The position numbers were made by a program, and so were the translations under genes. A model generated the notes under the pieces. That model had not been told where the DNA came from and made no database searches. It saw only the letters and a list, made by a program, of their open reading frames with translations. A DNA stretch of 21,047 nt, taken from a virus. The DNA is taken from positions 1-21,047 of IMG/VR virus record IMGVR_UViG_3300025818_000238. The stretch is one strand, 5' to 3'. Shown here in pieces: positions 1-8,306 of the stretch (positions are counted from its first letter, which is position 1; each line of letters starts with the position of its first letter).

Positions 1-216
1 GTCATCAAGAACTACGTTCGCAAGGGAACCAAGGTTATGGTCATGGGTGATCTTGACATCCGGGAGTTTCAGAAGGATGGCAACAAGATGTACGCCACCG
101 AAGTCAGCATGACTTCCTTCAACAGTGAACTTCAGATCCTGACACCAAAGGGTGGTGGGGAAGTAGTTGAGCAAGCAGCAGCAGGAGAACCGCTGGATGA
201 TGAAGTCCCGTTCTGA
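1..216 (+). CDS. ssb: Single-stranded DNA-binding protein, C-terminal part
   Basis: Only the last 71 codons are in the window; the start lies to the left of base 1. The visible part has the end of an OB-fold (VIKNYVRKGTKVMVMGDLDI, then a KMYATEVSM strand) followed by a short disordered linker and the acidic tip EPLDDEVPF. That ending closely matches the DDDIPF tip by which bacterial SSBs recruit polymerases, helicases and nucleases. The protein would coat single-stranded DNA during phage replication or recombination and may recruit host proteins through the tip. The linker is much shorter than in host SSBs, as is common in phage versions. The next gene starts inside its 3' end (overlap 197-216), so the two are probably translationally coupled. 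The SSB identity is firm; whether it supports replication, recombination or both cannot be told here. Confidence 0.88.
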   Translation, partial: VIKNYVRKGTKVMVMGDLDIREFQKDGNKMYATEVSMTSFNSELQILTPKGGGEVVEQAAAGEPLDDEVPF

Positions 217-442: not shown

Positions 443-1268
443 CATCGACTCGGCGGGGCAATGGTCCCCGCCTTGGCGGCGCGGGAACATGGGGCAGGCA
501 ATCAATGTCGTGTCCAAGCATCCCGCTACAGGAATCAATCGTATCCTGTTAATGGTATCCATGATAAACAAAGGGTACACATCTAACAAATGGGCTAGCT
601 TCAAGCAGTGGAACTCTATTGGTGCTAGGGTACGCAAGGGCGAGAAAGCAACCCGGACCATCTACTACAAACCGATAGAAGATCAGGATCTTAGGTCTGC
701 CAAGATCAATTATAGATTCATCATCAGGCACAACTACCTGTTCAATGTTGCCCAGGTCGATGGCTATAGCGAGGGATCGTCGGAGCCACCAAACAGCGCA
801 GACGAGACCGAGCGGGATATGGATCTCATGTCTTTCATATACAGCACGAAAGCCAAGATCCTTCATGGCGAGTTCAACCCATGCTACATCCCTAAGCATG
901 ACGAGATTCGTATGCCAGAAGTATCCAAATTCTACGATCTCAATGGGTATTACAGCACCCTGTTCCACGAACTGGTCCATTGGACTGGCGCAAAATTCAG
1001 GCTGGATAGGCAGCTCGGTCAGCGATTTGGTGACCACCAATATGCTGCCGAAGAACTCATTGCTGAAATGGGTGCGGCATTCCTGTCCTCTGAATGGAAT
1101 ATATATCAATCGACTAAGGACGAAAGCAATGCCTACCTTAAGCATTGGGTATCCATGATGACAGAAGATAGCCAGGCAATCGTCCGTGCTGCAAGCATGG
1201 CTGAGAAGGCTGTCACCTATCTCAAGGATCTTTACTCCGTCCATCAGATTGAACAGCAAGTAGCGTAA
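402..1268 (+). CDS. ardC: ArdC-like antirestriction protein with zincin metallopeptidase domain
   Basis: A 288-aa protein with the two-part ArdC/TraC1 architecture. Residues 1 to about 125 form the ssDNA-binding domain (SIYQEITESILNNI, WSPPWRRG, KWASFKQWNSIGARVRKGEK). Residues about 135-288 form the MPTase-like zincin with the family pattern YYSTLFHELVHWTGA. The zinc site is H189, E190 and H193, with a third ligand likely in EELIAEMGAAF (about 217-227). ArdC proteins bind single-stranded DNA and protect incoming DNA from type I, and sometimes type II, restriction; the role of the peptidase site is poorly understood. The ATG at 402 is chosen because GGAGA lies at 391-395; an upstream ATG at 354 lies far inside the preceding gene. 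It overlaps the HTH gene and is followed after 11 nt by the DnaA-like gene. The active-site residues look intact. The family is clear; the role in this phage is inferred. Confidence 0.87.
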   Translation: MSIYQEITESILNNIDSAGQWSPPWRRGNMGQAINVVSKHPATGINRILLMVSMINKGYTSNKWASFKQWNSIGARVRKGEKATRTIYYKPIEDQDLRSAKINYRFIIRHNYLFNVAQVDGYSEGSSEPPNSADETERDMDLMSFIYSTKAKILHGEFNPCYIPKHDEIRMPEVSKFYDLNGYYSTLFHELVHWTGAKFRLDRQLGQRFGDHQYAAEELIAEMGAAFLSSEWNIYQSTKDESNAYLKHWVSMMTEDSQAIVRAASMAEKAVTYLKDLYSVHQIEQQVA

Positions 1269-1279
1269 GGATAAGAATA

Positions 1280-2035
1280 ATGTACATGCTAGAGAATGGT
1301 AAGATTGATGTTGTTGCGTACATGCAGCATGTGAGGGACACGAAAGCCAGGATACATGGGAAGCCCAAGACGCAGCCAGTAGTCATGCTGCCCAAGAAGC
1401 CAGAAGAAATTAAGGATGAAGAGAAAGCAAAACCTTTTGAAGATGTTGAGGCTCTTCCAGAACTTTCGCCTGGAAAGATTACAAGCCTAGACATCTTGAA
1501 GGTAGTTGCTCATGTAACCGGCATCTCTATTCCAGAGATCAGATCTAGTCGGCGGCAAAAAGAGTTGGTCCGCGCCAGGTTCCTTGCCTGTATATTAATC
1601 AAGGAACTAACCACCCTAAGCTATCCTGCTGCTGGCCGTGCAATGGGTGGTAGGGATCATACATCTATTCTTAACGCTGTCATTACTGGCACAAAAAGAA
1701 TGAAGGAAGATCAGACCTTTATGGCTGACTACCTGCGAATCAAAGATATTCTTGTAGAACAGAAGGATGAAGTAGAGATGGAACTCGTGAACGAAGTGCT
1801 TGAGCAAAGGAAAAAGGTTCACGGTTCATACGATGACTATGCCAACATCAACGGCAGCATAATGAAGATTGTCAGGAACACAGAGAACTATGACAAGCTA
1901 GACAACAAGGAGCGGTCATCTCTGGACATGATCCTGTCTAAGGTAAGCCGTATCCTATCTGGAGATCCACACTTCCAGGATCATTGGGTTGATATTGCTG
2001 GATATGCAACGCTTGTTGTTAAAGAAAAAGACTAA
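1280..2035 (+). CDS. DnaA domain IV-like DNA-binding protein fused to a DUF6378-like domain
   Basis: A 251-aa protein with two recognisable parts. Residues about 65-159 align by eye with domain IV of the replication initiator DnaA: ITSLDILKVVAHVTGISIPE, a basic loop SSRRQKELVRAR, and the signature GGRDHTSIL at 123-131 (GGRDHTTVL in E. coli). These are the residues that read the DnaA box. The AAA+ ATPase and domains I-II are missing. After a charged linker, residues about 172-248 (HGSYDDYANINGSIMKIVRN, RSSLDMILSKVSRIL, GDPHFQDHWVDIAGYATLV) match the pattern of DUF6378, a small helical phage/prophage domain of unknown function. AAGGA at 1267-1271 supports the start. The gene is last in the ssb-HTH-ardC operon. 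It may bind DnaA boxes in the host or phage origin, either to occupy them or to seed phage replication; which of these is not shown. The domain calls are good, the function is inferred. Confidence 0.83.
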   Translation: MYMLENGKIDVVAYMQHVRDTKARIHGKPKTQPVVMLPKKPEEIKDEEKAKPFEDVEALPELSPGKITSLDILKVVAHVTGISIPEIRSSRRQKELVRARFLACILIKELTTLSYPAAGRAMGGRDHTSILNAVITGTKRMKEDQTFMADYLRIKDILVEQKDEVEMELVNEVLEQRKKVHGSYDDYANINGSIMKIVRNTENYDKLDNKERSSLDMILSKVSRILSGDPHFQDHWVDIAGYATLVVKEKD

Positions 2036-4641: not shown

Positions 4642-5163
4642 TTAAGGGGCGTCTGGCCACGTCACGTCCCACGGGAAGTTTGGCTGTTCTGTAATATCGC
4701 GAAGCGCCTGCCGGTAGTCTATCCATACCTGGGGAAGCTGGATGCCAAGTCCGTCGCTGCTAGCATCTACTGCCTTGAGCGTCACCCAATCGCAGTCAGC
4801 CAGTTTCTTGTCGCGTTCTGCGCGGATAGATTTGGCCTGCTCCTCATCCCTGTTGGCTTTGTATGCAGCTTCCTGCTGCGCTGCCGTCAAGACTGTGCCG
4901 TCCTCGTGAGTCACGTCAGTAAAGATGGGTCCAAGTACATACTTGGTGTACCATTTGCCGCTAATTTCCTCGATGCCCTGCTGCACCGAATACTGATAGC
5001 GGTCGCCACCAGTAGCCTGCGGCCCCTCAAAGATTGGATCGATGCCAAGGTCATTGCAAATCGTTTCGTCCCAAACTCGCGGAAGCGAAGTGTTTGCGTG
5101 CATCTGCCGGACAGCACCTTGACTCTTGATCTCTCCGGTTGATCTGATGCGATAGTCACCCAT
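4642..5163 (-). CDS. Tail-fibre assembly chaperone-like protein (Phage_tail_APC type)
   Basis: A 173-aa protein. The C-terminal 65 residues follow the Phage_tail_APC/tail assembly chaperone pattern: SIRAERDKKLADCDWVTLKA, then VWIDYRQALRDITEQPNFPW and DVTWPDAP at the very end. This RxxRDxxL..CDW..YRQALRD...FPW..TWP signature is common in proteins encoded next to tail fibres. The N-terminal 100 residues (YRIRSTGEIKSQGAVRQM, LGIDPIFEG) are shared by phage proteins of the same context. It probably helps fold or trimerise the preceding fibre and may not be in the virion. AAGGAG at 5171-5176 is 8 nt before the ATG at 5163; an in-frame ATG at 5169 would be too close to that site. The Shine-Dalgarno lies in a small hairpin listed separately. 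Confidence 0.82.
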   Translation of the reverse strand: MGDYRIRSTGEIKSQGAVRQMHANTSLPRVWDETICNDLGIDPIFEGPQATGGDRYQYSVQQGIEEISGKWYTKYVLGPIFTDVTHEDGTVLTAAQQEAAYKANRDEEQAKSIRAERDKKLADCDWVTLKAVDASSDGLGIQLPQVWIDYRQALRDITEQPNFPWDVTWPDAP

Positions 5164-5181: not shown

Positions 5182-7125
5182 GATTGCTAGAAAGATGTAC
5201 GATCCACCGTTGGCGTTGATTGCCGCTGGCGCTGTGCTGCTAATTTCAAAGCCGGCAGAGTATGGATCGATGTAGTCGGTGTTTGTCACCTGCGCGGCAT
5301 CACTGTTGAGTCGCACGTAAGGATCATTACCAGCGACGATGCCGCGAGCAGAGTCCCACATATACCAATCACCAATGCCGTCAACGCGTTTGATAACTAC
5401 GAACCTAGCACCGCTGGAGAACCCGCAGTTAATTTGATTGGTGGTTCCGGTGCCGGTGTAGGAGCCTACTTTGGATACGCCGGGGAGGGTGGCGAATAGG
5501 TAGGCTATGTAGTTGTTACCAGATGCGTTTGTCCCACCATACGTACCAACTTTGAAATATGTACTTGTGTGCGCTGCATCAGAGCCAAACGCAAAGTCGT
5601 TAAACTGCGTAGCTTGGTTTGTTATAAAAACCATATTTACGCCCAATGCTGTGTGATTTACACACCATTGCTGTGATCCGGGGGCAACCGGGCCCGACCT
5701 TGCCTTAACGATAATCATCTCAGGAGCAACGCCTAAGTTATGATTTACTGTGGTGGCAGAACCCGTCCCAGTATAGCACACCACATCAAAGAAGCCGGGG
5801 GCGCGGCGGAACATCCAAGATCGAATATCAGTGCTAGGGGTTGTGTTTATATCATAAAACCATCCGTTTGAGTAATCGGTGGCATAGTCAGTGCCGGGTG
5901 AAAAACCGTCTGTATCATTTGTTCTTAAAAAACCTTCACCAGGAAGCCTAGATACTGCTAAAAAAGCAGTGGTAAAACTTAAATTTTTTTGCAACGCAAA
6001 GTCTACAGGCCATTCGCTATAAAAGTTTGGTTGTGTTGCGTTGGTGCTATTTTTTGTATCAGTAGTATACACCTCCGTACCACTCGTCGGCACCTTCATA
6101 GGACCTCGGCGGATGGCGATGTAGATGTAGGTTGAGCTAGATGCATTAGTTCCCGCATGTGAGCTAGTTAATTTAAAGCCCGTGGAAGTATAATCAATCC
6201 AAGAAGCTCCCGATTCGGAGGAATTAGAGTTGCAATACATAACTTGGTCATCACCACCAGTAGCAACTCCACGCATGTTATCGTGCATCACCCAGTTGCC
6301 GCCAGTTGCTGATGATCTTTTTATAATCGTCCACTGAGGCTCAAACCCTAAGTCAATCACAGGGCCATCAGTAGAGCCATTACCAGTATAACTTCCACAC
6401 GAAATCACATTCTCCGTACCATCCTCCCCAAAGCCCCCAGCGTCGTGGGCGAAGAGGTAGGCTACATAAGTGCCACCAATACCGTTTATGTCTGAGTGAC
6501 CGCCAAGAGTTATAGCTGTGTTAGAAGCATGTGTACTATTCCAGTAATTATTACCGACACCCAGCGCAGCAGTACTATTGAGATACATTGTTTTGTTGCC
6601 GCTAAGGTCTAAACTTCTATGCTGTACTATCCAGTTTTGTCCGGTGTCTATACGCTTACAAATAACCATTCCGGGCGTTGACCCAAGATTATGCGGTAAC
6701 TGCCTGCCATTAACACCATCCCCCGTATAAGTCACCACATCAAAGAACTTCTCAGCCTTGCGGAAGGTCCATGAGGCGTAGTTGGCTCCGGAACTATTGA
6801 TTTGTGCATTAACTCCAATGTCAAACCCATCGGAGTTAAAAGCTCTTAAATGTGTTATATTATAAAATTCTGCCCCTTCGTTATTTGACTCTAAATACTT
6901 GTAAATTCCTCTTTCTGTGTCGTATAGCGCATGATCATACGCATTAACTCTGTCTTTAATCCAAACCAACCCACCCTCACCAGCAAGGTCAATCCCGTTG
7001 GTGATGGTCTGGTTGCCGCCGGTGCCTGTGTAAAGGTTGGTGGAAAATACGTCATCGATATAAAGCGGGCCGCTACTACCACCACCTACGCCAGCCGCAG
7101 CCAGTATGATATCTTTGGTTGCCAT
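5176..7125 (-). CDS. Tail fibre / adhesin built of repeated beta modules (DUF7483-like)
   Basis: A 649-aa protein rich in Gly, Asn, Ser and Thr, with no signal peptide. It consists of diverged repeats of about 95 residues. Type B units at about 127-226 and 445-546 read FFDVVTYTGDG, HNLGSTPGMVICKR, W.V.H and end YVAYLFA. Type A units at about 31-122, 245-340 and 554-649 read SYTGTG, GFEPQWTIIKR, W.MWDSARG. A degenerate region lies at 350-440. This pattern is common in putative fibre proteins of environmental phages and matches DUF7483-like domains. The modules are probably beta structures exposed for receptor binding. The ATG at 7125 overlaps the stop of the collagen-like fibre (TAATG); an in-frame start at 7161 lies within that gene and is less likely. 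It is followed by the fibre chaperone, supporting a receptor-binding role. Confidence 0.83.
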   Translation of the reverse strand: MATKDIILAAAGVGGGSSGPLYIDDVFSTNLYTGTGGNQTITNGIDLAGEGGLVWIKDRVNAYDHALYDTERGIYKYLESNNEGAEFYNITHLRAFNSDGFDIGVNAQINSSGANYASWTFRKAEKFFDVVTYTGDGVNGRQLPHNLGSTPGMVICKRIDTGQNWIVQHRSLDLSGNKTMYLNSTAALGVGNNYWNSTHASNTAITLGGHSDINGIGGTYVAYLFAHDAGGFGEDGTENVISCGSYTGNGSTDGPVIDLGFEPQWTIIKRSSATGGNWVMHDNMRGVATGGDDQVMYCNSNSSESGASWIDYTSTGFKLTSSHAGTNASSSTYIYIAIRRGPMKVPTSGTEVYTTDTKNSTNATQPNFYSEWPVDFALQKNLSFTTAFLAVSRLPGEGFLRTNDTDGFSPGTDYATDYSNGWFYDINTTPSTDIRSWMFRRAPGFFDVVCYTGTGSATTVNHNLGVAPEMIIVKARSGPVAPGSQQWCVNHTALGVNMVFITNQATQFNDFAFGSDAAHTSTYFKVGTYGGTNASGNNYIAYLFATLPGVSKVGSYTGTGTTNQINCGFSSGARFVVIKRVDGIGDWYMWDSARGIVAGNDPYVRLNSDAAQVTNTDYIDPYSAGFEISSTAPAAINANGGSYIFLAIA

Positions 7126-8306
7126 TATTTTACGTCCAATCCTAAAACAAAGCCGGACCATGTAGTGCCGCCATCATGTGTAAAGAACGCAAGAACGTCA
7201 CGACCAGCAGCGGTTAGCGTAGGTGCTGTAGCAGCAGCCCACTTAACGCCAGACCACCATGTAACAGTGGCCGACCCACCGTTGGTCAAGTCCAAAACAA
7301 AAGCACCCACGGTGCCAGAAGGGGGGATATTGGATACCGTGAAGGTAGTAGCCCCAGATATTGTTTTCGAGAAGTACGAGCCTGCGGCGAGGTTGATGCT
7401 AGATGCAGCAACCGCCACCTTGGTTTCGTACAGCGCCACCGTGGTAACAGTCTTACCGGTCAGCGTCTGGGTATCCGTCGTGCCAACAATAGCCCCAGTC
7501 GGGAACGTAGGTAGCGTAGGCGTACCAGACAGGTCACCGTAGGCACCACTCGTAGCTACTGTCGCCAGCGTAGGTGTCCCGGTTAGATCACTATACGCCC
7601 CAGTAGCTGCCACTGTCGCCAGCGTAGGCGTACCCGATAGATCACCGTAGGCACCACTCGTTGCGACTGTTGCCAGCGTTGGCGTGCCAGTCAGATCTGT
7701 ATATGCACCAGTAGTAGCAACTGTCGCAAGCGTTGGTGTACCCGTAAGATCAGCATACGCACCGCTGGTAGCAACGGTGGCTAGAGAACTTGTATTAGCT
7801 TTTGCAGAAAGCAGAGTATCTACTTCTGTTTCAGTGTAATACATACTGTCATGGTTATGCACTGCCGCCGCAAAACTAGCTGGCGAGTATATGCTGTCTT
7901 TTATGTAATCTCCGCTAGTGCCATCAAAAAGCACAATGTTGCCATCAGTAGAACTGGCAGGACCAATAACGTCACCAGATCCTGTACCAGCAGCACCCGG
8001 CTCACCTTGTGGCCCCTGTGGTCCGGTTGCACCTGTGGCACCCGTAGCACCAGTAGCACCCGTAGCACCCGTTGGACCTGTTGGACCCTCCGGCCCTTGT
8101 GGTCCGGTGGCACCCGTAGCGCCTGTTGCACCCGTAGCACCAGTAGCACCTGCTGGACCTGGCGGACCCTCAGGCCCCTGCGGCCCAACAATGTTGCCAT
8201 CGTATGCAAATGTCTTGTTGCCCTGGTAGACTAGTGCCTTGCCAATGTTGGCATCGGACGGCTCTGGCATTCCCTTGACTTGGGACAGGCGGATCTTAGT
8301 AACCAT
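7125..8306 (-). CDS. Collagen-like tail fibre
   Basis: A 393-aa protein in four parts. Residues 1-40 form a short head-proximal part ([20 protein letters not shown]). Residues 41-109 hold 23 consecutive Gly-X-Y triplets, including two runs of five GAT, expected to form a triple-helical stalk. Residues 110-174 are a connector ([18 protein letters not shown]). Residues 175-264 are five tandem 18-aa repeats of the type [18 protein letters not shown], and residues 265-393 a compact tip domain ([44 protein letters not shown]). Collagen-like phage fibres are trimers, so this one probably is too. AAGGAG seven nt upstream supports the ATG at 8306; the start overlaps the 67-aa gene by 11 nt. The tip domain probably carries the receptor or surface-binding role, but its ligand is unknown. 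Confidence 0.87.
7515..7784 (-). repeat. Five tandem 54-bp repeats in the collagen-like fibre gene
   Basis: Five in-frame copies of a 54-bp unit encode residues 175-264, consensus LATVATxGAYxDLxGTPT. Copies 3 and 5 are identical in protein. The DNA differs mainly at third codon positions, so the array has been kept by selection on the protein and is not a fresh duplication. Similar units occur in other phage fibre stalks. Copy number could change by recombination, altering shaft length. Confidence 0.88.
7980..8186 (-). repeat. Collagen-type Gly-X-Y repeat tract
   Basis: Twenty-three uninterrupted Gly-X-Y codon triplets (residues 41-109 of the fibre). Two blocks begin GPQ GPE GP and each run into five GAT triplets; a third GPQ block closes the tract. 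The DNA is correspondingly repetitive, which produces long mirror frames on both strands that are not genes. Confidence 0.92.

Follow-up and report, generated by a model that had tools for sequence, protein, structure and literature searches.

A phage gene joining a DnaA domain IV to DUF6378, and the recurrent pairing of the two domains in other phages

What could a phage do with the DNA-binding domain of the bacterial replication initiator DnaA when the rest of the initiator is missing? The question is raised by an open reading frame of 251 amino acids with an ATG start (positions 1280 to 2035, plus strand) in an IMG/VR virus record of 21,047 bases, taken over its whole length and referred to here as the window. 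A sequence-only reading had proposed that the encoded protein combines a DnaA domain IV, with a GGRDHTS signature and a basic loop, and a DUF6378-like domain, and that it might either compete with host DnaA or mark a phage origin. Annotated phage DnaA-IV proteins are already known, such as gp62 of Sulfitobacter phage phiGT1 ('DnaA C-terminal domain IV'), and DUF6378 is known as a Pfam family. In the open-access papers searched we found no description of the fusion, of a recurrent coupled pair, of a statistical association between the two domains or of the iteron-type context reported below, nor a paper on the function of a phage-encoded DnaA-IV.

Domains and genomic setting of the fusion

The DnaA domain IV spans residues 67-160 (positions 1478 to 1759, plus strand), as delimited by a profile match and by superposition on the E. 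coli structure. Bac_DnaA_C (PF08299, Pfam) matches residues 71-134 with E=4.7e-18 and 65.4 bits against a cut-off of 31.5, and among solved structures the top relatives of the fusion are E. coli DnaA domain IV (1J1V, E=2e-10) and full-length DnaA proteins of other bacteria, the latter aligning over their C-terminal part only. An AlphaFold2 model of residues 1-163, built from 52 sequences, reaches a pLDDT of 96-98 across residues 71-160. It superposes on 1J1V, in which domain IV sits on a DnaA box, with a Z of 18.8 and an rmsd of 0.8 A over 94 residues, and on 3PVP, again domain IV on box DNA, with a Z of 18.7; the shared fold agrees at 0.8-1.0 A across about 95 residues. The helix-turn-helix and basic loop are present in the model as in 1J1V. 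Thus, the profile search and the fold comparison, both of which the sequence-only reading had named as its critical tests, came out in its favour.

The GGRDHTS signature occupies residues 123-129 (positions 1646 to 1666, plus strand) and shares GGRDHT with bacterial domain IV. The counterparts of E. coli R399, P423, D433, H434 and T435 are kept as R92, P116, D126, H127 and T128, and that of R407 is likewise kept; we take these six E. coli residues to be DNA contacts in 1J1V, the first five of them base contacts. Among 68 phage DnaA-IV sequences D126, H127 and T128 are invariant. The fusion departs from bacterial domain IV at S129, the counterpart of T436, and at N132, the counterpart of H439, with Ser found in 10% and Asn in 16% of the same 68 sequences; the Ser in place of the second Thr, which had been singled out earlier, is therefore an ordinary variant. 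The fold match and the kept contact residues together indicate that the domain IV is real and, judged by sequence and model, looks competent to bind DNA.

Unlike DnaA, the fusion has no domains I-III. Its 251 residues gave no match to an ATPase, whose absence had been claimed, or to any other DnaA domain, and the DnaA equivalog model is covered over no more than its last ~95 positions (70.5 bits against a cut-off of 343.9). Lacking domain III with its AAA+ ATPase as well as the remaining DnaA domains, the protein is not a full DnaA initiator. Its N-terminus consists of a short helix (residues 11-25, positions 1310 to 1354, plus strand; AlphaFold2) and a low-confidence linker. Among 97 DnaA-IV proteins, 13 carry the motif HYKxVRxR(L/I) near the N-terminus, compared with 0.04 in shuffled sequences; the carriers (in L084, L105, L107, L109, L111, L116, L120, L125, L136 and others) are mostly paired with DUF6378, and in them the motif is followed by a linker that is often Pro-rich. 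The helix in the window does not match the motif and is a diverged counterpart of this region, which may serve as a docking site.

The C-terminal part of the protein, residues 173-246 (positions 1796 to 2017, plus strand), matches DUF6378 (PF19905, Pfam) with E=3.9e-6 and 27.5 bits, just above the cut-off of 27.1, and the domain taken alone scores 31.6 bits; the proposed DUF6378-like domain is thus confirmed. An AlphaFold2 model built from 70 sequences shows five helices with a pLDDT of 95.9. As in the DUF6378 proteins of other phages, R177, G182, K221, R224, D234, W236, D238 and Y242 are kept, which are invariant or nearly so in both branches of the family. Those proteins usually stand alone at about 86-130 amino acids, whereas the copy in the window is fused and carries Q192G, K195M and E213S; Q192, K195 and E213 are conserved in most members of its branch, a branch trait that does not define the family.

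The fusion gene lies directly behind an ArdC-like anti-restriction gene (ArdcN plus MPTase-PolyVal, a zincin-like peptidase) listed at positions 354 to 1268 on the plus strand, whose true start is probably inside that open reading frame. It begins 11 nt past the ArdC-like stop at 1268, and a putative ribosome-binding site read from the sequence, AAGGAT (1267 to 1272, plus strand), overlaps this stop. The gene is found intact in three more contigs (L002, L003 and L004), 97-100% conserved. L002 encodes an identical fusion protein and adds about 4 kb of upstream sequence, so that about 25 kb of the phage are known (the window plus ~4 kb of L002). The order in L002 is an HTH regulator, a DUF1064/Holliday-resolvase-like nuclease, an O-like replication initiator (with an HTH_36 match and a weak DnaT-like match), one more protein, a YqaJ exonuclease, two small proteins, an ERF annealing protein and SSB, the latter complete at L002 3827-4210 and represented in the window by its C-terminal part (37 to 216, plus strand). 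In the window SSB is followed by an HTH protein, the ArdC-like protein and the fusion gene, past which the genes lie on the opposite strand, an endolysin and tail genes among them. This gene order, together with the opposite-strand late genes downstream, makes the fusion the last gene of an early operon for replication and host takeover, in agreement with the phage operon that the sequence-only reading had assumed. Elsewhere in the window, positions 7125-8306 encode a tail-fibre-like protein in which collagen-like G-x-y repeats occur along with a recurring 18-residue unit.

Pairing of DnaA-IV with DUF6378 in other phages

Profile searches of the fetched loci showed that elsewhere DnaA-IV and DUF6378 mostly occur as two neighbouring genes. 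After removing pairs more than 85% alike, 26 distinct pairs remained: the DnaA-IV gene lies upstream within 300 nt in 19, the domains are fused in one (this phage), the order is reversed within 300 nt in one and the genes are further apart in five. DnaA-IV is thus directly upstream or fused in 20 of the 26, mostly overlapping the DUF6378 start, a count that is not a rate because most of the loci behind it were retrieved with DnaA-IV or DUF6378 queries. The split pairs (for instance in MW202711, L084, L102 and L107) share with the fusion the two domains, their order and their adjacency or overlap, but are encoded by separate genes in different frames, in many cases each with a ribosome site of its own, where the window has a single open reading frame. 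In MW202711 the DnaA-IV stop overlaps the DUF6378 gene by 8 nt (GTGTCTGA), and the latter has a GTG start with AAGGA about 8 nt ahead of it; overlaps of 4, 8, 14, 38 nt or more occur in many IMG/VR loci. The MW202711 annotation at this place (L006:19677-20451) gives a 'dnaA' CDS of 120 nt, a mere fragment; what the DNA really encodes there is a DnaA-IV open reading frame and an overlapping DUF6378 one.

Loci fetched with an alignment of the fusion are biased toward pairs and were left out of the rates. Loci fetched with ERF had been intended as a neutral control, but 43 of the 80 turned out to have DnaA-IV, and they served instead as a sample chosen by neither domain. Over 79 of these loci, DUF6378 was present in 18 of 42 with DnaA-IV and in 2 of 37 without (p=1.7e-4). 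When the loci were grouped by shared DNA and searched with a broader DUF6378 profile and with PF18909, one or the other was found in 12 of 15 clusters with DnaA-IV and in 1 of 21 without (p=4e-6), and DUF6378 alone in 9 of 15 and 1 of 21, respectively (p=4e-4), p-values that treat the clusters as independent. In ten of the 12 clusters the genes share a strand and lie no more than about 540 nt apart, and in two they are on opposite strands further away.

DUF6378 is also common without DnaA-IV: when DUF6378 was the sole query, 7 of the 80 viral loci retrieved had a DnaA-IV gene, and two of these 7 belong to this phage group. Of 30 DUF6378 loci from bacterial genomes, one has a DnaA-IV about 1.4 kb away. 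The stand-alone DnaA-IV proteins of Sulfitobacter phage phiGT1 (gp62), Olleya phage Harreka_1 and Rhizobium phage N28_2 resemble the fusion in being small proteins of the early region with domain IV as their only DnaA part, but have no DUF6378 within the protein, nor was a match to it obtained next to them. That the two parts are neighbouring genes in many phages suggests a tool in common use among viruses, which might serve to take over the copying of host DNA.

Seven loci (L212, L213, L214, L220, L224, L226 and L227) have a gene for a PF18909 dATP/dGTP diphosphohydrolase about 300-500 nt from DnaA-IV, in the place that DUF6378 occupies in other phages of the group.

The working part of the fusion might be DUF6378 itself, as an enzyme or sensor that handles nucleotides (of a type such as the all-alpha NTP pyrophosphohydrolases), with DnaA-IV tethering it to the nucleoid or to sites of replication. 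Seven ERF loci, forming three DNA clusters, lack DUF6378 and have the PF18909 gene near DnaA-IV, which would fit such a role, as would the conservation of the core residues K221, R224, D234, W236, D238 and Y242. In a library of viral models (BFVD) the fold relatives of DUF6378 are further members of the family, of which one bears the label nucleotide modification associated domain 1 (Nmad1), and, weakly, HAD-phosphatase proteins. However, a profile comparison of DUF6378 with PF18909 (hhalign) gave a non-significant probability of 1%, a sequence search of the PDB returned no match, and a fold search of the PDB gave nothing significant, with a MazG-like protein (7ODY) at a weak Z of 3.2. Pfam showed no connection to DUF1599 or MazG, and the window copy has lost the three polar residues conserved in its branch. 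DUF1599 itself did not occur in the 53 phage records examined. Since the profile comparison lends no support to a relation with PF18909, it is the gene context that points to a nucleotide-related role of DUF6378, and we consider it rather improbable that DUF6378 is the working part in this sense.

The phage origin and DnaA boxes

L002 carries three iteron-like repeats, CACCCCGG(A/G)CAG, at 1089, 1106 and 1128 (span 1089-1149) inside the O-like initiator gene, with spacings of 17 and 22 nt, which are not multiples of three, and with a less G+C-rich stretch after them. The arrangement resembles that of lambda-type origins, which lie inside O. Eight further loci (L212, L213, L214, L216, L226, L227, L229 and L230) have repeats of other sequence but equal geometry (17 and 21-22 nt) at the corresponding position; these match at 30-34 of 36 positions compared with at most 24 in shuffled sequence, and all nine iteron-type loci or their phages have a DnaA-IV gene. 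The triple in L002 is the probable phage origin, and the initiator with its recurrent repeat geometry argues strongly, though indirectly, that this origin has no need of DnaA boxes.

No TTWTNCACA box occurs in the window or L002; with about 25 kb known and about 1.5 boxes expected, this absence in a single phage says little. Over 31 records with DnaA-IV or DUF6378 we counted 31 boxes and 30 matches to a reversed-pattern control, and 95 non-redundant DnaA-IV loci (600 kb) held 21 boxes against 20.4 expected from the mean of permuted patterns. A DnaA-box origin in this phage was accordingly rejected, there being no box in its own sequence and chance-level numbers elsewhere. An O-like initiator with iteron-like repeats upstream and box counts at chance level make it unlikely that the fusion marks a phage origin, the second role that had been proposed for it.

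One record of a paired phage, G011 (locus L109), contains five exact copies of TTATCCACA in 36.8 kb against an estimated expectation of about 0.3, at positions 4769, 4781, 5782, 28640 and 28654, all inside genes. This hints at a role of DnaA boxes in at least one phage genome; as an origin these sites were rejected, lying inside coding genes and far from the DnaA-IV gene of that record.

The fusion might still be an accessory of the phage's own origin that binds diverged boxes there and assists either the O-like initiator or DnaB loading. DnaA-IV adjoins initiator-like genes in several isolate phages (DUF1376 in Rhizobium phage N28_2, a 'replisome organizer' in MW202613) and accompanies this group of ERF/O-like phages. 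Against this, the origins of the group look iteron-based, boxes are not enriched near DnaA-IV genes and about half of the ERF loci have no DnaA-IV nearby. A diverged binding site is not to be expected given that the base-contact residues are unchanged, and we regard an accessory role at the phage origin as quite unlikely.

Box counts also bear on whether the protein is a sequence-specific regulator of phage or host promoters, in which DnaA-IV binds DNA and DUF6378 oligomerises or binds a ligand, with no effect on host initiation. A DNA-binding part with a small helical domain behind it would be a usual layout for a one-component regulator, DnaA is itself a transcription factor, and the fusion adjoins HTH genes in the early operon. 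On the other hand, there is no exact box in the known 25 kb, a stretch that excludes the promoter region of the late operon, and two of the three one-mismatch sites in the window and L002 are inside late structural genes. Promoter regulation by the fusion thus appears unlikely.

Host initiation as a possible target

The best mechanism that we can propose from the sequence is competition with host DnaA at DnaA boxes, with which the intact base-contact residues are consistent. The isolated domain IV, made early in infection, would occupy host DnaA boxes at oriC, at titration sites and at DnaA-regulated promoters; the fusion would be unable to form an ATP-dependent orisome, and box occupancy would lower or block initiation in the host, with phage replication proceeding from an O-type origin of its own. 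In this model DUF6378 is a partner module, encoded by a separate and often translationally coupled gene in most phages and fused here, which probably causes oligomerisation of the DNA-binding part or renders it responsive to a nucleotide. The analysis shows the domains and their fold, the kept contact residues, the recurrent pairing, an initiator gene of the phage with an iteron-like triple, and box numbers no higher than chance. We infer box binding, the host as target, inhibition and the part played by DUF6378, and we give a host-directed box occupant without ATPase, produced early by a phage that uses its own initiator, a little less than an even chance of being correct. Counterpoints to this model are that DnaA-IV may recognise a diverged site, that the boxes of G011 hint at a role within a phage genome, and that the DUF6378 copy has lost Q192, K195 and E213.

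That a prophage protein can act on host initiation has a precedent in YfdR, encoded by CPS-53, a cryptic prophage of E. coli: YfdR binds the DnaA of its host, and overexpression of the gene cluster it belongs to inhibits initiation (PMC4776307). YfdR and the proposed competitor would thus both act on host replication initiation, but YfdR binds DnaA domains I-II and is not a DnaA-box-binding domain, whereas the fusion carries domain IV.

A broader proposal is that DnaA-IV with DUF6378, or with a dATP/dGTP diphosphohydrolase instead, forms a widespread and so far undescribed two-part phage module for nucleotide-responsive silencing of host initiation at DnaA boxes, with the phage itself starting replication from an iteron origin; on this view the fusion shows that the two parts act jointly. 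We consider this speculative and, as a whole, doubtful.

The gene pairing and the fusion tie DUF6378, a domain common in phages, to the control of DNA replication, and turn what looked like a one-off oddity into a testable module present in many environmental phages. The split DnaA-IV/DUF6378 pairs are short and readily cloned. If the competitor model is true, these phages would switch off host initiation directly, by imitating the DNA-binding domain of the initiator itself.
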